In this document: positions 1,825-16,286 of the stretch, one piece after another
How positions within the stretch are numbered: position 1 is the stretch's first letter
Layout of the letters: every line of letters starts with the position of its first letter
IMG/VR virus record: IMGVR_UViG_3300031857_008237
Location: 1 to 20,456 of that record
DNA: 20,456 nt
Reading direction: 5' to 3' (one strand)
Origin: a virus
Notes under the pieces: model-generated
The model's input: the letters and a program-made list of their open reading frames with translations, nothing else
What the model was told of the DNA's origin: nothing
Databases searched by the model: none
Position numbers and translations under genes: made by a program

Positions 1825-1844
1825 TGTATCCTCTAATCTTAAAT

Positions 1845-2068
1845 GATCTTGGCAAACAGAGACTGCTTTAAAGGCATCTCAGCCTAACAGTTTGTCCGTC
1901 GCTATGAGAAGATACAAAATGAAATAACGAAGGTATCTTCCATCCATTTCCCTCTTACTGGAAATGCAAAATCATTATGGTTTCGTCAGTAGTATCTTAA
2001 AGATACTGCTCTCTAGCCCTAAGACTTGAAGCTTTGTAAGAGTCAATAGAGGTTGAACCTCCGTTGCG
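1845..2068 (-). other. Untranslated, hairpin-rich leader between the tmRNA and the lysin gene
   Basis: About 250 bases with no supported gene separate the late box at 2082 from the lysin start at 1824. On the transcribed minus strand it contains a chain of perfect stems: GAGGT/ACCTC around 2050-2062, AGTATC/GATACT (2007-1991), CATTTCC/GGAAATG (1966-1945), GAAGATAC/GTATCTTC with a 17-base loop (1940-1908), and a closing element GG(A)CAAAC/GTTTGCC (1897-1851). The last encloses AGGC/GCCT, whose loop GAGA can pair with downstream TCTC as a small pseudoknot. I found no tRNA fold in it. It may be a regulatory leader or a separate small RNA; the pairings are seen, the role is unknown. Confidence 0.5.
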
Positions 2069-2074
2069 ATATTT

Positions 2075-2082
2075 TATTTATA
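2075..2082 (-). promoter_or_regulatory. T4-type late promoter upstream of the lysin operon
   Basis: Exact late -10 box TATAAATA on the minus strand (2082-2075), with no -35 element, as expected for gp55/gp33/gp45-dependent promoters. A start near 2069 would give the lysin, gp33 and gp59 genes a leader of about 245 bases. It lies about 13 bases beyond the last tmRNA hairpin. Confidence 0.65.
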
Positions 2083-2094
2083 CCATATATTAAG

Positions 2095-2259
2095 TTGCCG
2101 GATTCTGTTTCGAGGCTCCGGCGGGCCCAAGAGGTCATGCCGCTAGGCGGATACCTACAACGCTATCGTTATCGTTAGCATTTGTGTTTAATGGCAACTT
2201 TGCCAAGCAATCAGTCTCGAACCGCCCTATTCCGTCCCAGTCGATCCTATCTCACCCCC
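2095..2259 (-). ncRNA. ssrA: tmRNA coding piece (5' piece) of a permuted ssrA gene
   Basis: The mature 5' end is placed at 2259, where GGGGGTG (2259-2253) can pair with CACCTCC of the acceptor piece, giving G3-U70, the alanyl-tRNA synthetase identity pair. The D-arm-like stretch GATAGGATCGAC follows, as at the 5' end of bacterial tmRNAs. The tag frame is 2179-2135: GCT AAC GAT AAC GAT AGC GTT GTA GGT ATC CGC CTA GCG GCA TGA, encoding ANDNDSVVGIRLAA. It starts with the alphaproteobacterial ANDN and ends in the LAA protease signal. CCGC-CTA-GCGG with an outer GGT/ACC forms a P5-like hairpin around the stop codon, and GCCGGA/TCCGGC (2122-2097) probably closes the 3' end. TGATTG (2213-2208) can pair with CAATCA of the acceptor piece as part of P2. 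The 3' end is approximate. Confidence 0.9.
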
Positions 2260-2672
2260 GTCATAAATGATCTTGTCTTTCGACCTTGACCTTTTGCCCA
2301 ACCTTCAGGAGGAATCTGACCTTCTCTTAAACAACATTTCTGAGTTGGATCTTCTGGATTATGAAACCATCTTAATCCACCAGTTCCAGTTGGCTTAAAC
2401 TCTCCGGGCTTTGGTCCACGCCTTGCAGTTTTGTTAGCGTTTCCTTTAGCCGCGCCTCGTTTGCCAGCCTCACTTAGCATTTCCTTAACAAGTTGTTCTT
2501 TACTTATTAAGCCAGAAAGTCCCAACCATGCTAGTCGATCTTCCCATCTGCCATGTTGTTCGTAGAGAATTCTATGAGCTTCTGCATGTTCTTCAACAGT
2601 TAACTCAATCAAATTCTCTGGGTCATCAGTTCCACCCAAATACTTAGGCACTTTATGATGAATATGCTTCAC
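2247..2672 (-). CDS. HNH endonuclease encoded in the intervening segment of permuted ssrA
   Basis: 141 residues, beginning at GTG 2672 with AGGAG 7 bases upstream. The N-terminal HIHHKVPKYLGGTDDPENL followed by a HAEAHRILYEQHG segment is the HNH fold of small phage endonucleases: His pair, Asn-containing loop and second histidine helix. The C-terminal half (GKRGAAKGNANKTARRG, then GGLRWFHNPEDPTQKCCLREG) looks like the basic NUMOD-type DNA-binding modules of mobile HNH enzymes. The gene lies wholly between the CCA end of the acceptor piece and the coding piece, and its last four codons plus stop overlap the first 13 bases of the mature coding piece. It has its own late promoter and hairpin. 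Likely a free-standing homing endonuclease; the target is unknown. Confidence 0.85.
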   Translation of the reverse strand: MKHIHHKVPKYLGGTDDPENLIELTVEEHAEAHRILYEQHGRWEDRLAWLGLSGLISKEQLVKEMLSEAGKRGAAKGNANKTARRGPKPGEFKPTGTGGLRWFHNPEDPTQKCCLREGQIPPEGWAKGQGRKTRSFMTGVR

Positions 2673-2685
2673 TTAATCTCTCCTT

Positions 2686-2707
2686 CCTAGTTATTTATAA
2701 AACTAGG
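2686..2707 (-). promoter_or_regulatory. Late promoter within a hairpin controlling the HNH gene
   Basis: On the minus strand CCTAGTT (2707-2701) and AACTAGG (2692-2686) form a perfect 7-bp stem. The exact T4 late box TATAAATA (2699-2692) occupies the loop and first base of the 3' arm. The 3' arm abuts the Shine-Dalgarno AAGGAG. A late start would fall near 2686 and remove the hairpin, while early read-through from the ssrA promoter would include it. This is the arrangement described for T4 I-TevI and some late genes. Confidence 0.65.
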
Positions 2708-2725
2708 ATCTTAAAGACTAAGATC
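2707..2725 (-). other. Hairpin just after the tmRNA CCA end
   Basis: GATCTTA (2725-2719) and TAAGATC (2713-2707) form a perfect 7-bp stem with a 5-base loop, starting six bases after the encoded CCA. It lies in the intervening segment that must be removed to make the two tmRNA pieces. It could be a processing signal or protect the precursor; there is no T-run, so it is not a classical terminator. Confidence 0.45.
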
Positions 2726-2730
2726 ACTTA

Positions 2731-2796
2731 TGGTGGAGGTGACGGGTACTGCCCCCGTGTCCTCAGAACCTTTATCGTTGATTGTCAACAACTGAT
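2731..2796 (-). ncRNA. ssrA: tmRNA acceptor piece (3' piece) of a permuted ssrA gene
   Basis: The piece ends in CACCTCC, discriminator A and an encoded CCA (2741-2731). The T arm is ACGGG/CCCGT (2758-2742) with a 7-base loop GGCAGTA that lacks the usual TTC; I recall non-standard T loops in permuted alphaproteobacterial tmRNAs but could not check. CAATCA (2784-2779) and GTTCTG (in 2775-2764) complement TGATTG and CGGAAT of the coding piece, forming the P2 region. The 5' end is set by the promoter just upstream, about 2796. The gene order (acceptor piece first, coding piece second) is that of permuted, not intron-containing, ssrA. Confidence 0.9.
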
Positions 2797-15834: not shown

Positions 15835-16254
15835 TCATAAAGTCTCCTGTTCGGGGTTAAAGAGTAGAGCCTTGACATGACTCGCTTGAATTTTACAACT
15901 TACCCAGTTATTGTAAAATTTTGGATCTAGTATTGCATCATGATCAAAAATATACTTTGTTTCAAAGTAATTGCACTCACCACGAGATTTACATAAACGA
16001 AGAATAGTTCGTTTGAAGTTCTCTTTGCCGTACACTTCTATGTCTGCCTTTAAGGCGGGAGAAGACCCGTAATAGTCGTCCCAATCGGACTCTACACGGA
16101 TCTTCTTCCTTTTACCTTTGACAGTCTTGTATCCAGCTTTTGTAAGATACTTACGACCTATGTATTTCTTACCATTGGTCAGATTTTCAATAAGGTATAC
16201 GAAACCATACCATTCGCCATCATGAACAAATTCTTTGTCTTCGAATAACCACAT
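15835..16254 (-). CDS. GIY-YIG nuclease
   Basis: 139 residues from ATG 16254 (GGA 8 bases upstream). The nuclease core is clear: GFVYLIENLTNGKKYIGRKY (the GIY strand appears as FVY and the YIG as YIG with its Arg), DWDDYYGSSPALKADIEVYG, KENFKRTIL, and EUxE-like LCKSRGECNYFETKYIFD with the catalytic Glu. Beyond it there is no DNA-binding module, so it is close to the small GIY-YIG proteins of T4-like phages rather than a full homing enzyme. It may act on host DNA or as a Seg-type enzyme. It ends TGA at 15837-15835, overlapping the region where speD starts. Confidence 0.85.
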   Translation of the reverse strand: MWLFEDKEFVHDGEWYGFVYLIENLTNGKKYIGRKYLTKAGYKTVKGKRKKIRVESDWDDYYGSSPALKADIEVYGKENFKRTILRLCKSRGECNYFETKYIFDHDAILDPKFYNNWVSCKIQASHVKALLFNPEQETL

Positions 16255-16286
16255 AAATCTATTCCATAACAAGCGGAAAGATTTAT

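Follow-up and report, generated by a model that had tools for sequence, protein, structure and literature searches.

The intervening segment (IVS) of a permuted ssrA gene is discarded in the mature two-piece tmRNA. An HNH endonuclease reading frame in such a segment raises the question of how it came to be housed there, how it is expressed, and whether the surrounding tmRNA gene stays intact. These questions were addressed for IMG/VR virus record IMGVR_UViG_3300031857_008237, of which positions 1 to 20,456 (20,456 nucleotides, here called the window) were analysed. All features of the ssrA locus described below lie on the minus strand.

A permuted ssrA gene with an HNH reading frame in its intervening segment

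Rfam covariance models for tmRNA_permuted (RF04321) and alpha_tmRNA (RF01849) matched the window at 2793-2135 (79.9 bits, gathering threshold 47) and 2835-2093 (62 bits, gathering threshold 50), respectively. ARAGORN missed the ssrA gene in the window, probably because of its long insert. From its 5' end, the gene consists of the acceptor (3' half) RNA with the T-arm and the acceptor 3' strand CACCUCC (2735-2835, strand at 2741-2735; RF01849/RF04321 and sequence), the ACCA end of the tRNA-like 3' piece (2731-2734; sequence and Rfam alignment), an IVS of 471 nt (2260-2730), and an mRNA-like 5' piece (2093-2259; Rfam) that comprises the acceptor 5' strand GGGGGUG (2259-2253), the D-arm, the tag and the pseudoknot region. 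The tag ORF (2135-2179) encodes ANDNDSVVGIRLAA, followed by a stop. This order, with the acceptor/T-arm piece before the mRNA-like piece, is that of alpha-type permuted genes, as were the matching covariance models. The two acceptor strands form 7 of 7 pairs and include the G3-U70 alanine identity pair, and the tag ends in LAA. At the level of sequence, these features confirmed a permuted (two-piece) alpha-type tmRNA gene at about 2835-2093. A sigma-70 scan revealed no convincing early promoter for ssrA.

The HNH ORF (2247-2672) encodes 141 amino acids, starts with GTG and ends with TAG; a Shine-Dalgarno (SD) sequence, AGGAG (2680-2684), was recognised in the sequence 7 nt upstream of the start. 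Its product matched PHROG 655, 'homing endonuclease' (E 1.8e-11). The initial annotation, made from the sequence alone, had stated that an HNH ORF fills the 471-nt IVS, which was confirmed by Rfam, the sequence and PHROG 655. The range it had assigned to the gene (2247-2731) had to be narrowed, since the ORF runs from 2672 to 2247 and 2731 is the CCA end. Its view that the ORF sits in neither an intron nor an intein was upheld: Rfam yielded tmRNA families only in the window, and the ORF, which lies in an RNA gene and is not fused to a host protein, is provided with a start and a ribosome-binding site (RBS) of its own.

The window protein scored 19.6 bits against the Pfam HNH model, slightly below the cut-off of 21.4 bits, which was exceeded by its relatives at loci L206 and L212. 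Residues H5, H6, N20 and H29 were invariant across 15 relatives. An AlphaFold model showed a beta-beta-alpha HNH finger (E3-6, E21-24, H26-40; pLDDT about 90) and lower certainty for the C-terminal half. A match to the Cas8f-HNH fold was weak, and a Foldseek search returned nothing significant. Values of dN/dS were 0.07-0.13 among alleles (0.12 for the window versus L004), which indicates that the gene is under purifying selection. These low ratios make it very probable that the ORF is translated and under selection; the initial annotation had made its interpretation depend on translation.

HNH-bearing and HNH-less ssrA loci

IMG/VR was searched with the HNH protein, its alignments and the neighbouring gp59 homologue. 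These searches identified 14 distinct HNH-in-IVS alleles with one common layout, namely the window, L004, L005, L156, L206 (also L207 and L208), L210, L211, L212, L213, L214, L215, L216 (also L217), L220 (also L221 and L222) and L248. Their IVSs measured 464-642 nt; L211 and L220 scored under the Rfam gathering thresholds. Since 14 distinct alleles share the layout, it is not due to chance. In an IQ-TREE protein tree, the 14 IVS-borne HNHs and that of L219, which lies directly upstream of a short-IVS ssrA, formed one clade (support 98/94), separate from 27 HNHs at other locations. The association of HNH and ssrA, for which HNH genes elsewhere without an ssrA link had been named as counter-evidence, thus recurs and is specific to one HNH clade, and genes of the latter kind belonged to other clades only.

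The isolates phiA8-29 and S-CBWM1 each carry a full-length relative within a tRNA array (L286 1426-2100 and L287 1426-2064), and one in isolate S-SRM01 is flanked by structural genes; none of these three relatives lies in an ssrA IVS. The tRNA-array location is in keeping with a lineage whose putative target is tRNA-like sequence. In S-SKS1 a close match to the HNH N-terminus was found, with no tmRNA nearby. Among bacterial genomes, two relatives were found, both in MAGs and neither inside ssrA on inspection. Some other arrangements were also observed. In phiA8-29, the gene starts 14 nt past one tRNA, and there is no gap between the gene and the tRNA that follows. In L004, a second, antisense HNH gene (1840-2280, minus strand) lies directly 3' of the HNH-bearing ssrA. 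L238 and L272, which belong to another clade of the HNH tree, carry an HNH just upstream of ssrA; a T-arm-like fragment (GGACGGCGGTTCGAY) precedes it and an intact permuted ssrA follows, a pattern that would result if an insertion had cut the T-arm and the T-arm had been rebuilt downstream.

Within the phage group of the window, defined by gp59 identities of 80-95%, at least 33 ssrA loci (17 found by pattern, 16 by Rfam) had a short IVS without room for an HNH gene, and three loci besides the window were HNH-bearing. Among about 110 permuted ssrA genes found by pattern, none besides the window and the HNH-bearing loci named above contained an HNH. HNH-less L147 matched the window up to 2729 and again from 2268, with 89.7% identity in the 5' piece; the flanks are therefore homologous and the IVS alone differs. 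The presence of HNH is thus patchy at an otherwise conserved locus. The search for ssrA loci with and without the ORF, which had been proposed together with a search for the cleavage site, succeeded in its first part; HNH-less and HNH-bearing IVSs do not align, and this comparison gave neither a clean empty site nor a mapped cut site. In L145, the downstream flank is 90% identical to that of the window and the T-arm and D-arm are unrelated, with a different acceptor as well, a contrast which suggests that tRNA-like-domain haplotypes have been exchanged between phages.

This distribution also bears on whether the HNH has been domesticated, in the sense that it has ceased to home and has taken on a function for the phage, such as exclusion of rivals by cleavage of their ssrA or a part in the handling of tmRNA. 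Strong purifying selection and repeated retention at one site would fit such a role, but patchiness among close relatives is typical of mobile endonucleases, and we know of no reported tmRNA factor of this HNH family, which also counts against it. Domestication in place of homing is considered unlikely, and the two are not mutually exclusive.

tmRNA structure and expression of the HNH gene

An inserted gene might have inactivated ssrA and left a decaying pseudogene that merely holds the HNH. The Rfam score of the window (79.9 bits) is indeed lower than that of phage Melnitz (113.4), and the T-stem of L005 is weak (3 of 5 pairs). Against this, all 14 HNH-bearing alleles formed 7 of 7 acceptor pairs and kept G3-U70, while their acceptor stems varied (GGGGGUG, GGGCCUG, GGGCCCG, GGGGAUG and GGGGACG among them) with compensatory changes. 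Recognisable tags, each different, were found in 13 of the 14, and the helix that closes the IVS was also kept. By these comparisons the tmRNA around the HNH appears to stay intact, and its loss is regarded as very improbable.

The closing helix extends the acceptor stem by pairing of IVS bases 1-8 with bases that start five from the IVS 3' end. In the window, the 5' arm UAAGUGAUCUU (2720-2730) pairs in fixed register with the 3' arm AAGAUCAUUUA (2264-2274), which is made of codons for the HNH C-terminus. At least 7 of 8 pairs were formed in 13 of the 14 HNH-bearing alleles (L220 has no helix) and in 80 of 85 shorter phage IVSs, the latter with 58 different 5' octamers. In HNH-bearing alleles, arms paired at 7.4 of 8 positions with their own partner and at 5.0 of 8 after partners were swapped, a test that overstates independence as the alleles are related. 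In these alleles, the 3' arm is coding sequence from the end of the HNH ORF.

The stop codon of the ORF itself was less constant, and its position relative to the mature 5' end ranged from 12 nt before to 40 nt after in the 14 alleles. Six ORFs stop short of that end, and in five of these the stop is the TGA within a common TGAT that precedes it; the window frame instead stops at a TAG in the D-arm. The initial annotation had emphasised that the gene ends inside the mature 5' piece. In the window this is correct for the last 13 nt, including the TAG (2247-2259), but the overlap is not conserved, and because it is absent from 6 of 14 alleles it is taken to be incidental. Judged by the same alleles, the conserved trait is that the last codons of the HNH form the 3' arm of the closing helix (13 of 14).

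Control elements were found upstream of the HNH start. The window contains a hairpin (2672-2722) whose outer stem (2722-2713/2681-2672) covers the SD sequence and the first base of the GTG, and whose inner stem is formed by 2708-2701/2692-2685. Its loop holds most of TATAAATA (2692-2699), which is the T4-type late promoter element. The hairpin folded with a z-score of -3.9, and none of 200 shuffled sequences folded equally well. Each HNH-bearing allele has a hairpin directly upstream of HNH with the outer arm paired to the SD region, and in or near its loop lies TATAAATA (12 of 14 alleles) or ACTAAATA (2 of 14). Relative to shuffled sequences, z-scores were -3.9 to -7.4 for the leaders of four alleles and -1.4 to -5.5 for longer leader stretches of all 14. 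Pairing of the SD/RBS arm was better in native combinations than after partners were exchanged between alleles (permutation p 0.0005, by a test that is generous because the sequences are related), while pairing in L213 and L216 was no better than in swaps. TATAAATA occurs twice in the 20-kb window, both times at the ssrA locus, before HNH and just 3' of ssrA at 2082-2075; with a chance mean of 1.28, the element is no rarer than expected and its count by itself does not exceed chance, and the weight of the element rests on its position and conservation.

The second copy heads a non-coding stretch of about 250 nt (2082-1826, minus strand) between ssrA and a cell-wall hydrolase gene. Of 76 loci that match this stretch, many do so at 83-100% nucleotide identity, and Rfam gave no match to it; it is possible that it represents a structured RNA or a leader of a new type.

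Free-standing homing endonuclease genes are common between genes of T4-like phages, and a hairpin combined with a late promoter is reported to control I-TevI, I-TevII, I-TevIII, segB and Aeh1 mobE; early read-through RNA then hides the RBS, and late RNA lacks the 5' arm of the hairpin (PMC2988022). By sequence and folding, the window shows the arrangement of the I-TevI type, with a late promoter in or overlapping an RBS-sequestering hairpin. Predicted RBS accessibility was not consistently higher for the late transcript than for the early read-through transcript. The initial annotation had proposed that one RNA serves as both HNH mRNA and tmRNA precursor, so that 5' processing would cut the HNH message and, if the two compete, couple both functions. 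An ORF that spans the mature 5' end in the window, and an HNH orientation identical to that of ssrA in 14 of 14 alleles, are compatible with translation from the precursor. The six ORFs that finish ahead of the mature 5' end argue against it, as do the late promoter element and RBS-hiding hairpin, which suit a separate late transcript rather than read-through. Such dual use of one transcript is accordingly judged improbable. Instead, HNH probably has its own late mRNA, separate from the tmRNA precursor. An mRNA that begins inside the IVS would not include the acceptor 3' strand, and RNase P would be expected to leave it uncut for that reason.

Proposed homing at ssrA and comparison with known systems

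The preferred interpretation, to which we assign a probability of about 0.78, is that the gene encodes a free-standing HNH homing endonuclease specialised on the permuted ssrA of T4-like aquatic phages and housed in the IVS. Homing itself is inferred. When two phages infect one cell, the enzyme would cut or nick the ssrA of the partner that lacks HNH, and HNH would be copied together with flanking ssrA during repair. The insertion would be harmless as RNase P and 3' processing would strip the IVS from the precursor, aided by the continuation of the acceptor stem into the closing helix. In the read-through precursor, the hairpin would conceal the HNH RBS; late-promoter transcripts would be translatable for want of the hairpin 5' arm, and would be spared by RNase P for want of the acceptor 3' strand. 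The HNH frame extends into the IVS 3' arm, so that the codons for its C-terminus serve at the same time as one strand of the helix.

The D-arm was considered as homing site on the basis of the best 14-nt matches between it and the HNH leader (L220, for instance, has AATAGGATCGACTG), a likeness that recalls the similarity of operator and homing site of I-TevI. It is only a tentative candidate, as matches were near shuffled levels in many alleles and the alleles are related. Differences of the D-arm and T-arm in HNH-bearing alleles are only suggestive of a target site.

The closest known systems are free-standing HNH (mob) genes of T4-like phages, notably Aeh1 mobE, which is inserted in nrdA; with respect to regulation, I-TevI and segB are also close (PMC2988022). 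Shared with the mob enzymes are the small HNH protein with a separate C-terminal region, the intergenic type of insertion, and the RBS-hiding hairpin with a late promoter (PMC2988022). Unlike these, the window HNH is housed in an IVS, within a non-coding RNA gene that is permuted, its putative target is ssrA, and the codons for its C-terminus contribute a strand to the RNA precursor. A tmRNA database paper from 2025 noted one IVS with a tRNA gene, and group I introns of tmRNA genes of which some carry LAGLIDADG genes (PMC11915505). As in those introns, a mobile endonuclease gene lies in a tmRNA gene and is removed before the RNA works, but the introns are self-splicing and lie in the T-loop of standard genes, whereas the window gene has no intron, is permuted and would undergo tRNA-type processing. 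ORFs for the 23S IVS protein are likewise known in IVSs of bacterial 23S rRNA, which are cleaved by RNase III and left unligated (PMC11270868). Both cases concern an ORF in a segment of structural RNA that is excised without ligation, and they differ in processing (RNase III versus tRNA-type), RNA (rRNA versus phage tmRNA) and protein (non-HNH versus HNH).

Two-piece tmRNA has been described for Melnitz and pelagimyophages (PMC9004378). Melnitz, like the window, represents a T4-like marine phage with an alpha-type permuted ssrA and gp33-like and gp59 neighbours; its IVS is 142 nt long and holds a small unrelated ORF and no HNH, whereas that of the window measures 471 nt and holds the HNH. The papers searched, a set that mostly excluded subscription titles, contained no description of a tmRNA IVS with a protein gene, be it HNH or another. 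The designation of the IVS as a third kind of home for mobile endonucleases was too strong, given known intergenic homing endonuclease genes and ORFs in 23S rRNA IVSs.

Other IVSs in these phages are not normally empty either; the initial annotation had described the segment as normally short and discarded. An SD-led ORF that spans at least 65% of the IVS was present in 19 of 43 phage IVSs that measure 100-300 nt and lack HNH, compared with 1.6 expected from shuffled sequences. In six families of these small ORFs, dN/dS was 0.09-0.22 in most pairs, with 0.41 for one close pair and saturation in another pair, so that several families appear to be under purifying selection; nine representatives had no match in PHROG. 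Loci with such ORFs include L001, L013, L019, L032, L037, L043, L058, L066, L076, L080, L084, L092, L105, L114, L123 and L124, as well as others, and the small ORF in the IVS of the cultured Melnitz is one of them. We consider it probable, with slightly less confidence than homing at ssrA, that nested protein genes generally find a niche in the IVS of permuted ssrA in phages. The tenant would be a homing endonuclease lineage specialised on ssrA in some phages and one of several unrelated small protein families in others, and coding sequence and closing helix would share the same bases.

Under the homing interpretation, a selfish endonuclease would occupy a non-coding RNA gene without disruption or intron, by use of a gap made by gene permutation. 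Permuted tmRNA spacers, treated as discarded, gain a coding role in phages, and the locus is a natural system for asking how a single piece of DNA can encode a protein while it also meets the needs of RNA processing and RNA structure.

Elsewhere in the window, an ORF at 15835-16272 (minus strand) contains a GIY-YIG-like motif (YGFVYLIENLTNGKKYIGRKYLTKAGY) and possibly encodes another mobile or repair endonuclease.
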